Source of the DNA: Halococcus agarilyticus
Lineage (GTDB): Archaea > Halobacteriota > Halobacteria > Halobacteriales > Halococcaceae
Direction: 5' to 3'
Assembly: GCF_000334895.1 (NCBI RefSeq)
Contig: NZ_BAFM01000004.1
Span: 62,001 to 126,000, forward strand
DNA: 64,000 bases
A program made the position numbers and the translations under genes. The notes beneath the pieces are model-generated. The model did no database searches. It saw nothing but the letters and a program-made list of their open reading frames with translations, and was not told the origin of the DNA. Position 1 is the first letter of the stretch; the number at the start of each line of letters is the position of its first letter. Positions 6,202 through 53,338 of the stretch are shown piece by piece.

Positions 6202-6393
6202 GTCGTTCGTGGCGAACGGGGCGACAAGTGCTTTGTGGGGGCGATCGATTCGCCCCGCGCCAGACGATCCGCGGTCCGCTACCGGCCGCCACGTTTCGCT
6301 CGTCGGCGGTCGTGAGAGCCCGATCGAGTTCGGACGTCCCCTCTCGACAGCACCGCCTCGCACCTTCCGGAAAGCGGTCCGCCCGTCCGCTGG

Positions 6394-6400
6394 CTATTAG
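6394..6400 (+). promoter_or_regulatory. TATA-like box of the coxA transcript
   Basis: The AT-rich element ctattag is centred about 27 nt before the ATG at 6424, not before the coxA start at 6521. In haloarchaea this spacing marks transcription beginning at or next to the start codon, which makes 6424 the expected first codon of the mRNA. Confidence 0.5.
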
Positions 6401-6423
6401 TCGGTCGGTCCCGACGACCGCGT

Positions 6424-6528
6424 ATGAACCGTGTCGCGGCAGTCGGGAACCGTGCCGACCGGGCGCTTGCAGTGGCAGGCGAAACCGTCGCGCTCCCGCG
6501 TCGCGTCGACACCCCCACCCATGGTTGA
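6424..6528 (+). CDS. putative 34-residue leader ORF coupled to coxA
   Basis: This ORF starts at the predicted transcription start and ends in TGA at 6526-6528, overlapping the first eight bases of coxA (start 6521). The peptide begins MNRVAAVGNRADRALAV and is rich in Ala, Arg and Val, with no membrane segment. It may be a leader cistron that carries ribosomes to coxA on an otherwise leaderless mRNA. It could also be a chance open frame in GC-rich DNA. Similar ORFs precede three other genes in this window. Confidence 0.35.
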   Translation: MNRVAAVGNRADRALAVAGETVALPRRVDTPTHG

Positions 6529-8347
6529 GGCGATCGTCGGCATCGCGGTGCTCGGCCTGATCCTCGGGCTCCTCGCGTGGCGGATCCACGTGAACCGGGC
6601 GACAGCGCCGCCCGAACCGGCCCGCCCGGACGGTGGTGAGCGTGCCGACGGTGGCTACCTCCCCGCGAACCCCACCACCGAGGCCGGCACGGAGACCGCG
6701 GCAAAGTCGGCGGGGATCACGCGCTGGCTCACGACTGTCGATCACAAGGACATCGGGATCATGTACATCGTCTTCGGGACGATCGCGGGGCTGTGGGGCG
6801 GCACCGACGCGATGATGATCCGGACCGAGCTCCTCACCCCCGAAGCCGACATCTGGACCGAGGCGACCTACAACGCGCTCTTCACGACCCACGGGATCAC
6901 GATGTTGATCCTCTTTGTCACCCCCGTGTTCTTCGGCCTCGCGAACTACTTCCTGCCCATCCTGATCGGGGCCGACGACCTCGCCTTCCCGCGACTCAAC
7001 GCGCTCGGCTTCTGGCTGTTGCCGCCCGCACTGATCCTCATTCGGGGCGGGCTCGTCATCAACGTCTTCGCGAAGTTCCTCGGCGTCTGGATCCCCGTGG
7101 AGGCGATCGAGTTCCTGTTCGCGATCAAGCCTCCCGAGATCGGGTGGTATCTGTACACACCGCTGTCGATCCAGTCGCCGAACCCCCAGGTGGATTTCTT
7201 CCTGCTCGGCCTCCACCTGAGCGGGATCGCGACCGTGCTCGCCTCGATCAACTTCATCGTCACCGTGTTCGCCGAGCGCGGCGAGGGCGTCTCGTGGGCC
7301 GACCTCGACCTGTTCACGTGGACGCTCGTCACGACGGCGGGGATCGCGCTGTTCGCGTTCTCGCTGCTCGGCAGCGCGATCGTCATGTTGCTGCTCGATC
7401 GGAACTTCGGCACGGCCTTCTTCACACTCGACGGCGGCGGGCCGATCCTCTGGCAGCACATCTTCTGGTTCTGGGGCCACCCCGAAGTGTACATCCTCGT
7501 CCTCCCCGGGTTCGGGCTGATGAGCTACATCCTCCCGAAGTTCGCCGGACGGACGCTGTTCGGCCGAACCTACGTGATCTACTCGACGTTCGCGATCGGG
7601 GTGCTCTCGTTCGGGGTGTGGGCCCATCACATGTTCTCCACGGGGATCGATCCGCGGATCCGCGCGAGCTTCATGGCGGTCTCGCTCGCGATCGCGATCC
7701 CGAGCGCGATCAAGGAGTTCAACTGGATCACGACGATCTGGAAGGGGCGAGTCAGGCTAACCGCGCCGATGATCTTCTGTGTCGGCGGGCTCAGCACGTT
7801 CGTGATCGGCGGCATCACGGGGGTGTTCCTCGCCTCGATCCCGGTGGACCTGCTGTATCACGACACCTACTACGTCGTGGGACACTTCCACATGATCCTG
7901 ATGGGCGTCATCCCGTTCATGATGATGGCGGCGAGTTACTACTGGTTCCCGATCCTCACCGAGCGGATGTACGACCGGCCGCTCGCCCGGTTTCAGGCCG
8001 TGCTGATGGTGGTCGGCGTGATCGTGACCTTCGGCGCGATGCTCATTACTGGTGCGCTCGGGCTGCCGCGGCGGTTCGCGAGCTACCCCGCGGAGTTCGC
8101 GCCGCTGATGGAGATCACGACGATCGGGGCGTACGTCGTCGGGATCAGCGTAATGTTGTGGGTGTGGAACATGCTCAAATCCTACTTCTGGGGCTCGCGG
8201 ATCACCGAGGCCGACGTCTGGGATCTGAAGGAGGTCGGCCAGTTCACTCGCGAGTGGCAGCACTTCGAGGCGCAGCTCCGCGAGCGCTACGCGACCGATG
8301 GTTCGGGTACGCCGAGCGAGTCATCCGGGAGTGAGAGCGAGAGATGA
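6521..8347 (+). CDS. coxA: heme-copper cytochrome oxidase subunit I
   Basis: The catalytic subunit of an aa3-type (A family) oxidase that reduces O2 to water and pumps protons across the cell membrane. The protein has 608 residues. An extra N-terminal helix and a linker of about 50 residues precede the conserved core at TTVDHKDIG. Visible ligands are His124 (low-spin heme), H320 of GHPEVY (CuB, with its cross-linking Tyr), the His-His pair 369-370 (CuB) and the histidines of GHFH at 455 and 457 (hemes). The Glu in GHPEVY marks the D-channel type. ATG 6521 is preferred over an upstream in-frame start because of the promoter position. It heads a tight operon of three genes. Confidence 0.95.
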   Translation: MVEAIVGIAVLGLILGLLAWRIHVNRATAPPEPARPDGGERADGGYLPANPTTEAGTETAAKSAGITRWLTTVDHKDIGIMYIVFGTIAGLWGGTDAMMIRTELLTPEADIWTEATYNALFTTHGITMLILFVTPVFFGLANYFLPILIGADDLAFPRLNALGFWLLPPALILIRGGLVINVFAKFLGVWIPVEAIEFLFAIKPPEIGWYLYTPLSIQSPNPQVDFFLLGLHLSGIATVLASINFIVTVFAERGEGVSWADLDLFTWTLVTTAGIALFAFSLLGSAIVMLLLDRNFGTAFFTLDGGGPILWQHIFWFWGHPEVYILVLPGFGLMSYILPKFAGRTLFGRTYVIYSTFAIGVLSFGVWAHHMFSTGIDPRIRASFMAVSLAIAIPSAIKEFNWITTIWKGRVRLTAPMIFCVGGLSTFVIGGITGVFLASIPVDLLYHDTYYVVGHFHMILMGVIPFMMMAASYYWFPILTERMYDRPLARFQAVLMVVGVIVTFGAMLITGALGLPRRFASYPAEFAPLMEITTIGAYVVGISVMLWVWNMLKSYFWGSRITEADVWDLKEVGQFTREWQHFEAQLRERYATDGSGTPSESSGSESER

Positions 8348-8940
8348 GCAGCGACGACGAACTGGAGGGTAGCGACGAGAAGGACCTGCGAGAGCACTTC
8401 GCGCCGGTCGCGCGCAGCGCCCGGCGGGCGGTCACGAGCCGAACCCTTCAGGTCTACACGATCGCGTTCGTCGGCGTGGTGGTCCTCTCGGCCAGCATCG
8501 GCCCCACCGTCGTCGGTGCGTACGCGGTGTTTCAGGAGGACTTCGACCTGTGTAGCGATCCGTACATCGAGGTCCTGCCGCCGGAGGACACCGAGGCGGT
8601 CGACGCCGGAGCGGAACCGCCGGAGTTCGAGCGGCTCGACTTCGCGGCGCTGACCGCCGACGAACAGCGTGCGTTCCGCGCGGCGCTCGACGAGGCGAGC
8701 AACGAGCACCCGATCGAGGGGGAGAGCGTCGAGCACCTCGACGCGTTCCGCGACGGCGTCCTCGTCGAATACGAGGGCGCTGAATACTACGTGGCGATCA
8801 CCTCCAACAACGAGTGTGTGACGGCTGGCGCGGTCCGCTTCCCGCTCTCGATCGCGGGCCTCGTGATCGGTAGCGGGATGGTCGTCGCGCCGGAGCTACA
8901 GCGCCGCTTCGGCCGAAAGGAGGACAAAGGTAATGAGTGA
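8344..8940 (+). CDS. oxidase-cluster membrane protein of unknown function
   Basis: A 198-residue protein. An acidic N-terminus is followed by one membrane helix (about residues 36-60), an acidic extracellular domain of about 110 residues with two cysteines (DLCSDP and NNECVT), and a second helix before a basic C-terminus. Its ATG overlaps the coxA stop (ATGA), so it is coupled to coxA. It resembles haloarchaeal proteins that accompany oxidase genes. Assembly or stabilisation of the oxidase is an inference from position only. Confidence 0.75.
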   Translation: MSSDDELEGSDEKDLREHFAPVARSARRAVTSRTLQVYTIAFVGVVVLSASIGPTVVGAYAVFQEDFDLCSDPYIEVLPPEDTEAVDAGAEPPEFERLDFAALTADEQRAFRAALDEASNEHPIEGESVEHLDAFRDGVLVEYEGAEYYVAITSNNECVTAGAVRFPLSIAGLVIGSGMVVAPELQRRFGRKEDKGNE

Positions 8941-9448
8941 GTACGAGATCCACCGACCGAGCTTTTCGGGCACGACGCGAAACGACTGGGAGTTCCCCTC
9001 CGAGGTGGACTTCGACACCGAGGACCTCCCCGCGGCCGCCGATCGCTTCCTGCTCTCGAAATCCGGGTTCGACGAGCCCGGGGCGTTCGAGGACCTCGCG
9101 CTGCCGGTGGTCACCTCGCGGGGCGAACTCAGCTACAACGCGCTCTGGGCCGCGAAACGAGGCCCGTACAGCGTCGAGCGGATCGACGGGCTCGACGCCG
9201 AGACCAGACAGGAAGTCGAGGAACTCGTCGACGACCTCGGCCACGAGCACTTCGGGGGGTTCGACGACGTCACGCTACCCGCCGCACGGAGGGAGATCGC
9301 GCTCTCGAACGATGAACTCGACGAGGACGACGAAGGCATCGGCGGGTTCGTGACGGCAGGTCACGCGACGCCGACCCCGACGCGGGCCGCCATCGGCCTT
9401 CTCGCTCTCGTCGGGGCGTCCGTCGCGATCGATCGGCTCCGGCGCTGA
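8933..9448 (+). CDS. oxidase-cluster acidic protein, C-terminally membrane-anchored
   Basis: The 171-residue protein has a long soluble acidic part and a single C-terminal hydrophobic segment (about 147-168, AAIGLLALVGASVAI) followed by RLRR. This is a tail-anchored layout facing the cytoplasm. The start overlaps the preceding gene by eight bases, making it the third gene of the coxA operon. No known domain is recognised. A role in oxidase assembly is inferred from the operon only. Confidence 0.7.
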   Translation: MSEYEIHRPSFSGTTRNDWEFPSEVDFDTEDLPAAADRFLLSKSGFDEPGAFEDLALPVVTSRGELSYNALWAAKRGPYSVERIDGLDAETRQEVEELVDDLGHEHFGGFDDVTLPAARREIALSNDELDEDDEGIGGFVTAGHATPTPTRAAIGLLALVGASVAIDRLRR

Positions 9449-12782: not shown

Positions 12783-12870
12783 TACGGGTCCTTACACCGA
12801 GACCAGCCTAAAGGACCCACCGGACACATTCGGGGTGAACGTTATCGGCCGACATATCGTCGGACCGAGC

Positions 12871-14908: not shown

Positions 14909-15975
14909 AGCTGCTCCTCCTCGGGTCCACGGCGGAGACAGGCCGCCTCGTGGTCGCCCCACCCCTCGCCGGGCGTCGCCCCGGCGTCGAGGGTCCGTCC
15001 GACCGGTCTGAAGTCGGGCGGAACCTCGTAACACTCGCGTTTCGCCTCGGGACACCGCGGCGCGAAGTGGCAGGCGTAGGGGATGTCGATCAGGTCGGGG
15101 ACGTTCCCCTCGATCGGCTGAAGATCCTCCATCGGGGTGTCGAGTCGCGGCGTGCTGGCGATCAGCCCCTGGGTGTAGGGGTGCTGGGGGTTGTCGAACA
15201 GCTCGCGGGCCTCCGCGCGCTCGACGATCTCGCCGGCGTACATCACGTTCACCCGGTCGCAGACCTCGGCGACCACCGAGAGGTCGTGGGTGATGAGCAG
15301 GATCGAGGTGTCGAAGGCCTCTCTCAGCGCCCGGAGTTCGTCGAGGATCTGGGCCTGGATCGTGACGTCCAGAGCAGTGGTGGGCTCGTCGGCGATCAGG
15401 AGATCGGGCTCGGCCGCGAGCGCCATCGCGATCATCGCGCGCTGGCGCATCCCGCCCGAGAACTCGTGGGGGTAGTCGACCGCCCGGCTCTCGGGTTCGG
15501 GGATCTCGACGGTTTCGAGCATCTCGATCGCGCGCCGCCACGCCTCGCCGTCCTTCGCCGCGCCGAGGATCTTGCGTTTGACCTCCGCCGGCAGGCGCGT
15601 CGACTCGCCGCCGTGGCCGTGGAGCCGGACCGACTCGGCGATCTGCTCGCCCACCGTCAGGGTGGGGTTGAGGCTGTTCATCGGGTCCTGAAACACCATC
15701 GAGATCGCCCCGCCGCGCACCTCGCGGCGCTCGGCTTCGGCCATCGACAGCAGCGACTCGTCGTGGAGCCGGACGTCGCCGCCAGCGATCTCGCCTGGCT
15801 CCTCGACGATGCCGGCGATACTGTCGGCGAGCACGCTCTTGCCGGAGCCGGACTCGCCGACCAGCCCCACGATCTCGCCCGATCGAATGGTGAGATCGAC
15901 CTCGTTCACGGCGTCGACGGTGCCCCGTGGGGTCGGGAACCTGGTGTGGAGCCCGTCGATTTCGAGCAGGCTCAT
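14905..15975 (-). CDS. dipeptide-type ABC importer ATPase (OppD/DppD-like)
   Basis: The partner ATPase of 356 residues, with Walker [10 protein letters not shown], signature SGGMRQR, Walker B LLIADEP and THDLS. The C-terminal [16 protein letters not shown] segment is characteristic of peptide and nickel ABC ATPases. It overlaps both neighbours by four bases, indicating strict operon coupling. With the two permeases and the binding protein it forms a complete importer. Confidence 0.92.
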
Positions 15976-16973
15976 CGTCCCTCGACCTCCCCTTCGCTCA
16001 CGTCGAAGACGTCGCGCAGCCCGTCACCGAGCGTGTTGAACGCGAGTACGACGATCATGATGGCGAAGCCCGGCATCACGCTGATCCACCACGCCTGGCT
16101 GATGAACTGCCGGCCGTCCGACAGCAGGAGGCCCCACGTCGGCGTGGTCGGCTTGACCCCGAGCCCGAGGAAGGAGAGGCCGGCCTCCGCGAGGATCGCG
16201 AGCGGGATCATCAGCGTCGCCTGGACGATCAGCGGCGCGACCGCGTTCGGCAGGATCTCGCGGGTCATGATCCGCCGGTCACTCATCCCGATCGCGCGCG
16301 CCGCGGTGACGTACTCCTCCTCGCGCAGCGAGAGCACCTCGCCACGGACCAGCCGCGCGAAGTCGTCGATGTACGCGATCCCGATGGCGATGATGACGTT
16401 CTGGACGCCAAGTCCGCCGGAGATGGCGATGATCCCGACCCCGAGGATGAGTTCGGGGAACGCCCACTGGAAGTCGACGTACCGCATCAGCGCGCTGTCG
16501 ATCCAGCCGCCGTAAAAGCCGGCGAGCAGCCCGATCGACGTGCCGAGCGTGAACGCCACCGCGACGGTGGCGAGCGCGACGAGCAGGGAGACGCGCGCGC
16601 CGTAGATGATGCGCGAGAGCAGGTCGTGGCCGATCGAGTCGGTGCCGAGGGGATGCCAGACCCGCTCGGTGCCGGGATCGCCGTCGTAGTTGCCGACCGA
16701 GTAGCTGTTCGGCTCCTGCATCAGCCCGTAGGTCGCGTCGGGGTCGTGGGGCGCGATCATCGGTGCGAACGCCGCGACCAGCACGAACAGGACGACGACC
16801 ACGGCCCCGAACAGCGCCAGCTTGTCCGCCAGCAACCCCTCGACGATGCGCTGACGGGTGGTGCGGTGTTCCTCGACCGACTCGTCCGTGTCGCGGTACT
16901 CGGGCGGGACGTCCGCCGGCCCCGGTTCGGCGGGCGTGTTCGGCCCGACGCCCGGTTCGGTGGCGTCGCTCAT
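15972..16973 (-). CDS. dipeptide-type ABC importer permease (OppC/DppC-like)
   Basis: A 333-residue inner-membrane permease. A cytoplasmic N-terminus of about 50 residues precedes the OppC N-terminal helix (LALFGAVVVVLFVLVAAFAP). The large periplasmic-side loop carries HPLGTDSIGHDLLSR, typical of this subfamily, and five further helices follow with the ATPase-contacting EAA loop (EYVTAARAIGMSDRRIMTREILPN). Start 16973 overlaps the end of the upstream permease gene. Confidence 0.92.
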   Translation of the reverse strand: MSDATEPGVGPNTPAEPGPADVPPEYRDTDESVEEHRTTRQRIVEGLLADKLALFGAVVVVLFVLVAAFAPMIAPHDPDATYGLMQEPNSYSVGNYDGDPGTERVWHPLGTDSIGHDLLSRIIYGARVSLLVALATVAVAFTLGTSIGLLAGFYGGWIDSALMRYVDFQWAFPELILGVGIIAISGGLGVQNVIIAIGIAYIDDFARLVRGEVLSLREEEYVTAARAIGMSDRRIMTREILPNAVAPLIVQATLMIPLAILAEAGLSFLGLGVKPTTPTWGLLLSDGRQFISQAWWISVMPGFAIMIVVLAFNTLGDGLRDVFDVSEGEVEGR

Positions 16974-30545: not shown

Positions 30546-30650
30546 ATGCAAGGGACAGCGCTCCGCGGGACGACGATCCGAACCACGAGCCGGCGATCGG
30601 TGCGGAGAGCGACGGCCGTCGCCGCGATGGGGGCCACGGCACGGCCATGA
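30546..30650 (+). CDS. putative 34-residue leader ORF coupled to the GT2 gene
   Basis: Begins at the first ATG after the predicted transcription start and ends in TGA overlapping the GT2 start codon as ATGA. The peptide (MQGTALRGTTIRTTSRRSV...) is Arg/Thr/Ala-rich and basic, unlike normal haloarchaeal proteins, which argues for a coupling function rather than a stable product, or for chance. Same length (105 nt with stop) as the leader ORFs before coxA and the BGTF surface protein gene. Confidence 0.35.
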   Translation: MQGTALRGTTIRTTSRRSVRRATAVAAMGATARP

Positions 30651-31402
30651 CGGCGTCGGGTTCGCCGTCGGTCTCGATCATCATCCCCACCTACAACGAG
30701 CGCGAGAACATCGAGCGCGTCGTCGATCGCTGCCAGGCGGCGCTCGACGGCTACCGCTTCGAGATCGTGGTCGTCGACGACGACTCCCCCGACAAGACCT
30801 GGCAGGTCGTCGCCGACGCGTACGACGGTGCGGAGACGGTGCGGGTCGTCCGCCGCACCGAGGAGTCGGGGCTCGCGACCGCGGTCTCGCGCGGGTTCGA
30901 CGAGGCGACCGCCGAGCTGTGCGCGGTGATCGACGCCGACCTCCAGCATCCCCCCGAGAAACTCCCCGAGCTCGTCGCGGCGTTCGACACCGGCGCGGAC
31001 ATCGTGATCGGGAGCCGCCACGTCGCCGGCGGCGGGGTCGAGAACTGGTCGCTCGCCCGCCGGATCGTCAGCCGCGGCGCGATGGCGATCGCGAAGCTCG
31101 CGCTCCCGCCGACACGGGGGATCTCCGACCCGATGAGCGGCTTCTTCGCGATCCGGCGCGAGATCATCGACGGCGTCGCGCTCGCGCCCACCGGCTACAA
31201 GATCCTGCTCGAAGTCCTCATGAAATGCGAGTACGACCGGATCGCCGAGGTTCCCTATGTCTTCACCGAGCGCGAGCGCGGCGAGTCGAAGCTCACCGCC
31301 GACGAGTACCTCGACTTCCTCACTCACGTCTACGATCTCCGGCGCGACGAGCGTGGCGGATGCGAGCGGGCGATCCCCGTCACGGTCGAAGGCCGGCGGT
31401 AG
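30647..31402 (+). CDS. family 2 glycosyltransferase, dolichyl-phosphate sugar synthase-like
   Basis: A 251-residue GT-A enzyme of the DPM1 type, which transfers a sugar from a nucleotide donor to dolichol phosphate on the cytoplasmic face. Motifs are VSIIIPTYNERENI (1-25), the donor-binding VVDDDSPDKT, and DADLQHPPEKLPEL with the metal-binding DAD, then SRHVAGGGVENWSLARRIVSRGA and DPMSGFFAIRR. It has no C-terminal helices, as in short DPM1 proteins. Start 30647 follows the conserved first strand; a longer in-frame start at 30524 lies too near the TATA box. Confidence 0.9.
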   Translation: MTASGSPSVSIIIPTYNERENIERVVDRCQAALDGYRFEIVVVDDDSPDKTWQVVADAYDGAETVRVVRRTEESGLATAVSRGFDEATAELCAVIDADLQHPPEKLPELVAAFDTGADIVIGSRHVAGGGVENWSLARRIVSRGAMAIAKLALPPTRGISDPMSGFFAIRREIIDGVALAPTGYKILLEVLMKCEYDRIAEVPYVFTERERGESKLTADEYLDFLTHVYDLRRDERGGCERAIPVTVEGRR

Positions 31403-53237: not shown

Positions 53238-53338
53238 GGCTCACTACCGACGCGTCGACACGTCGCCGCTCCGGCCGCCGCCGTGTCCGTGGAGGGCGAA
53301 CACGAGGACTGGAAGGGGGCGTTCGATTCTGGCATCAT
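53234..53338 (-). CDS. putative 34-residue leader ORF coupled to the BGTF surface protein gene
   Basis: ATG at 53338 lies about 8-9 nt after the transcription start predicted by the box at 53371-53380. TGA overlaps the GTG start of the surface protein (GTGA). The peptide starts MMPESNAPFQSSCSPSTDTA and is 34 residues, the same length as the leader ORFs before coxA and the GT2 gene. It could be a chance ORF. Confidence 0.35.
   Translation of the reverse strand: MMPESNAPFQSSCSPSTDTAAAGAATCRRVGSEP

Follow-up and report, generated by a model that had tools for sequence, protein, structure and literature searches.

How does translation of an oxidase gene begin when another, much shorter reading frame ends on its start codon? 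The question is raised by a 64,000-nucleotide stretch of Halococcus agarilyticus DNA (contig NZ_BAFM01000004.1, positions 62,001 to 126,000; the window, in whose numbering coordinates are given), in which coxA, encoding cytochrome c oxidase subunit I (6521..8347, + strand, from ATG 6521; COX1 profile E 2.8e-138), is preceded by an upstream open reading frame (uORF) of 34 codons at 6424..6528 on the same strand. Direct reading of the sequence bears out the elements listed in a preliminary description of this DNA: the ATG at 6424 (the uATG), a 105-nt frame that translates as MNRVAAVGNRADRALAVAGETVALPRRVDTPTHG before its stop, a TATA-like box, TATTAG (6395..6400, + strand), starting 29 nt before the uATG, and an 8-bp overlap of the uORF end with the coxA start, ATGGTTGA (6521..6528, + strand), which is the candidate site of termination-reinitiation. 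We consider the uORF to be a putative leaderless starter cistron from which ribosomes would reinitiate on coxA, and give this reading a probability of roughly 0.8. It fits best because the spacing of promoter and uATG and the stop/start overlap are conserved, the peptide is not, and coxA has no box of its own; the comparative data thus lend support to the reinitiation that the preliminary description had proposed.

The position of the A/T-rich box is consistent with an mRNA 5' end at the uORF start codon. When 95 coupled uATGs were collected with no box required, all-A/T 5-mers peaked at -28 to -33, and the same peak was found in 372 called genes of one genome (G003), which served as the reference for ordinary promoter distance. 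At the promoter position before coxA itself the window has no A/T-rich box (at most 3/6 A/T), and in the 95 coupled loci all-A/T 5-mers are absent from -34 to -26 of the coxA start; a promoter of its own for coxA was rejected on these two grounds. In a Haloarcula-like group the start codon at the uORF position is TTG, GTG or ATG according to species and is followed by the same frame, and such a swap at a fixed place would look like the expected picture of a leaderless start codon fixed by its promoter. The Halobaculum limi record places the annotated coxA start at the coupled ATG, and the coupled first cistron was left unannotated in both Halobaculum records that were checked.

Within the genus, the region was compared with five distinct relatives, L112 (which equals L023 here), L085, L086, L087 and L088. 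In the alignment the blocks CCGGAAA, TCCGCTG and TATTA/TATTT and the start GTATG lie at the same place in all five. The uATG and the coxA ATG are 97 nt apart in the window and 100, 100 and 103 nt apart in the three relatives nearest to it (L085, L086 and L112), so that the distances differ by 3 or 6 nt, always a multiple of three. In L087 and L088 this distance is 98 nt, which puts the uORF in another frame, and its stop overlaps the coxA ATG by 7 nt all the same, so that the apparent target of selection is the overlap rather than any one frame relation. That close relatives should have lost the frame had been named beforehand as an outcome that would tell against the proposal; such a loss was looked for and not seen: the coupled uORF is retained. 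Roughly 22 nt separate the CCGGAAA block (6367..6373, + strand) from the TATA-like box, which it precedes; an ordinary B recognition element would sit closer, and the block is perhaps a regulator site.

These relatives also bear on the idea that the uORF is an N-terminal extension of CoxA, reached by frameshifting or from an in-frame GTG start at 6431. The coxA frame of the window is indeed open up to that GTG, and at two other loci (L161 and L195) a leaderless-looking GTG in the coxA frame gives an N-terminal extension in place of a uORF. However, in L085, L086 and L112 the stretch above the coxA ATG contains neither an ATG nor a GTG in frame, for which reason a GTG start of coxA was rejected; the frame relation differs in L087 and L088, and the annotated coxA of Halobaculum limi begins at the coupled ATG. 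An extended CoxA is therefore extremely improbable.

Beyond the genus, 140 distinct coxA-family loci were surveyed for uORFs that begin with ATG, have an A/T-rich box at -34 to -27 and end in a stop that overlaps the coxA start by 1-11 nt. This arrangement was found at 65 of them, as against 5.1 +/- 2.0 loci (maximum 10 in 60 rounds) when the upstream 200 nt were shuffled. Control searches with shifted overlap windows gave 2-14 loci and those with displaced box windows 11-22, and a chance origin of the coupled uORFs is ruled out by the three controls together. The overlap measured 4 nt, of the RTGA type, at 50 of the 65 loci, 7 nt at nine, 8 nt at four and 1 nt at two; that of the window, at 8 nt, is not an RTGA tetramer. 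Lengths ranged from 10 to 36 codons (33 to 111 nt), so that the exact length of 105 nt, to which the preliminary description had drawn attention, is a coincidence. One locus, L186, has two tandem short ORFs upstream of coxA, the first leaderless-looking and each joined to the next start by ATGA.

As the 140 loci are related and do not represent independent trials, we used a tree of CoxA to address their kinship. The tree held 60 sequences (quick search, midpoint root), with families taken from the locus labels. It contains an orthologue clade of 35 CoxA proteins from six haloarchaeal families, and in 34 of the 35 a coupled short uORF precedes the gene. The start codon is counted as ATG in 30 of these, GTG in one and TTG in three, L015 being counted as ATG only through a wider box window and perhaps starting at TTG like its sisters. 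For three Haladaptatus-type loci (L009, L127 and L119) the tree label was set by hand because the box lies at -35/-36; the wider box window confirms the coupled uORF in L127 and L119, and the uORF of L009 is the same as that of L127. Outside the clade an ATG uORF was found for one of 25 CoxA (L016), with weak GTG or TTG candidates only in L110 and L120. The simplest reading of the tree is a single origin of the uORF at the base of the clade followed by one loss. Nearly all of the related oxidase genes retain the layout, though with differing peptides.

The peptide itself shows little sign of constraint. In the window clade the ratio of nonsynonymous to synonymous change (pN/pS) in the uORF frame is 1.00, not the value of a peptide under purifying selection, and a functional conserved peptide was rejected for this clade. 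Three other groups give values of 0.55-0.76, which are not in every group clearly specific to the frame; weak peptide constraint is possible there. The 61 distinct uORF peptides are mostly basic (17.7% Arg, 9% Asp+Glu), unlike typical haloarchaeal proteins, which are acidic. At the coxA start of the window no RNA structure was found beyond that expected from composition (fold z +0.68). A peptide-sensing leader or attenuator would be marked by a conserved peptide or by pronounced RNA structure; here the peptides diverge and the fold is unremarkable. The same two results weigh on a broader alternative, in which translation of the uORF would sense a condition (ribosome state, amino acid supply or oxygen) and throttle coxA rather than simply deliver ribosomes to it. 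Its conservation at a respiratory gene and near absence from coxA paralogues favour such a regulator, and a leaderless start permits regulation of the mode of initiation. The divergent peptide speaks against a fixed peptide signal, and the RNA structure of the window is not unusual, so that we consider a regulatory uORF unlikely, though the least unlikely of the alternatives.

Several observations weigh against reinitiation as proposed here. The window clade has no Shine-Dalgarno (SD)-like motif in front of coxA, and among 91 loci such a motif occurs in only 28; in Haloferax, motifs of this kind often raise reinitiation. One member of the clade, L090, lacks the uORF, and coxA genes outside the clade mostly manage without one. 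The box at -35/-36 in some Haladaptatus-type loci makes a 5' untranslated region (UTR) of a few nucleotides possible there. Another alternative is that coxA is translated independently from a 97-nt leader, the uORF being incidental. A minority of haloarchaeal mRNAs are leadered (PMC4983044), but the SD sequence, absent here, is reported to be non-functional for de novo initiation in haloarchaea (PMC6728339), the coupled stop is kept in all but one of the clade members, and the counts with shifted overlaps are low. Independent translation is thus very unlikely.

Under termination-reinitiation, transcription would start at or beside A6424, given the TATA-like box at the usual distance, and the mRNA would consequently begin with AUG. 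Ribosomes would load on this 5' AUG as on other leaderless haloarchaeal mRNAs, translate 34 codons, terminate at 6526-6528 and then reinitiate on the overlapping coxA AUG (6521). What comparison shows to be kept is the uORF start, its open frame and the overlap of its stop with the coxA start; the peptide itself does not matter. Downstream, coxA overlaps two further genes on the + strand in like manner: the start of the next (8344..8940) overlaps the end of coxA by 4 nt, and that of the third (8933..9448), which ends the chain, overlaps its predecessor by 8 nt. Neither has a Pfam or NCBIfam match. The four reading frames form one overlapping chain, to which the mini-cistron would be the single translation entry point. 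The uORF is also inferred to be the main route to CoxA.

Is the arrangement peculiar to coxA? Coupled uORFs were counted in 1.48 Mb from four genomes using a home-made gene finder, with shuffles that kept the coding start because ATGA itself favours a 4-nt overlap. They precede 28 of 772 leading genes, compared with 10.6 +/- 2.9 after shuffling (at most 18 in 100 rounds); genome-wide, coupling is associated with the box (Fisher p 0.0017). A class therefore exists, although a small one: its excess over chance is perhaps 2% of leading genes, a level that coxA far exceeds. A second member in the window is likely to be the glycosyltransferase family 2 gene at 30647-31402, to which a 105-nt uORF (30546-30650, + strand) is coupled by ATGA. 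The coupling is GTGA in its close relatives L231 and L232, and distant relatives have a leaderless-looking GTG in the frame of the gene, which suggests a route by which uORFs could arise; we conjecture that a frame break in a leaderless N-terminal extension was rescued by reinitiation. The preliminary description had counted four such arrangements in the window, three of exactly 105 nt, a claim with weaker support. Four 105-nt ATG ORFs are indeed found under relaxed criteria, but the look-alike at 16076 (- strand) lies inside a called gene (15972-16973) and that at 53338 (- strand) has a weak box (4/6 A/T). The look-alike at 12829 (- strand) is not conserved, and its gene is itself leaderless-looking. 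The wider proposition is that translation of the oxidase must enter through a leaderless mini-cistron, which was present in the ancestor of one haloarchaeal coxA clade and has been retained across families solely because its stop overlaps the coxA start. In the small class of cis-acting starter cistrons spread over haloarchaeal genomes, it would be the best-conserved example; we hold this proposition tentatively, at slightly less than an even chance.

If it is true, archaea with leaderless mRNAs rely on short, disposable cistrons to begin translating a central respiratory gene, and it becomes a testable question why selection keeps a coupled cistron whose product is not conserved rather than a leaderless coxA. 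A warning also follows, in that haloarchaeal gene maps miss such first cistrons. We found no description of a starter ORF at haloarchaeal coxA in the literature covered, which did not extend to the Haloferax Ribo-seq work (Gelsinger 2020; Hadjeras 2023), where a prior mention is possible.

The components of the proposed mechanism are familiar from Haloferax volcanii. In this organism 72% of transcripts are leaderless, and overlapping gene pairs are strictly coupled, the SD motif not being essential for reinitiation (Huber et al. 2019, PMC6728339); coupling spacings are -4, -1 and -8, and over about 20 nt hardly any coupling remains (Huber et al. 2023, PMC10666635). The stop-to-start distance at coxA falls between the -8 and about +6 nt expected of termination-reinitiation, being -8 in the window and -4, -7, -8 or -1 in relatives. 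The coxA arrangement thus shares with the pairs of this other haloarchaeon the spacings of 4, 8 and 1 nt, but those pairs are ordinary genes, whereas the cistron in front of coxA is a mini-ORF whose peptide is not conserved. The idea of ribosome delivery has been stated in general terms in a 2025 review (PMC12548453). Short ORFs upstream of ordinary haloarchaeal genes were also described in long 5'-UTRs of H. volcanii (Babski et al. 2016, PMC4983044). Those (n=16) were sought only in UTRs of 150-250 nt, have low isoelectric points and were presented as possible small proteins, whereas the coxA uORFs occur in shorter leaders, encode Arg-rich and mostly basic peptides, and end in coupled stops. 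Ribosomes of E. coli likewise bind an AUG that opens an ORF at the mRNA 5' end, with possible effects on the gene downstream (Beck et al. 2016, PMC4965119), but those mRNAs also carry a canonical SD leader for the main gene.

The closest parallel is provided by the leaderless coupled small ORFs of mycobacteria, in which the architecture is likewise kept, the peptide diverges and ribosome delivery has been proposed (Shell et al. 2015, PMC4633059). The coxA uORF shares two hallmarks, its stop overlapping the downstream start (by 8 nt in the window) and its architecture being conserved (34/35 in the clade) without its peptide (pN/pS 1.00 in the window clade). The preliminary description, whose author knew of no such leader class, is corrected here: this mycobacterial class is of the same kind. 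The haloarchaeal cistrons differ in that they belong to Archaea with TATA promoters, are known from sequence, include a tandem pair (L186) as well as overlaps of 7 and 8 nt, and have their layout kept by one orthologue clade across six families. The likeness to the mycobacterial use of such cistrons for some genes is presumably convergence. Its deep conservation at an archaeal respiratory gene was not found described in the literature covered; in kind, given the mycobacterial class, the arrangement is not new.
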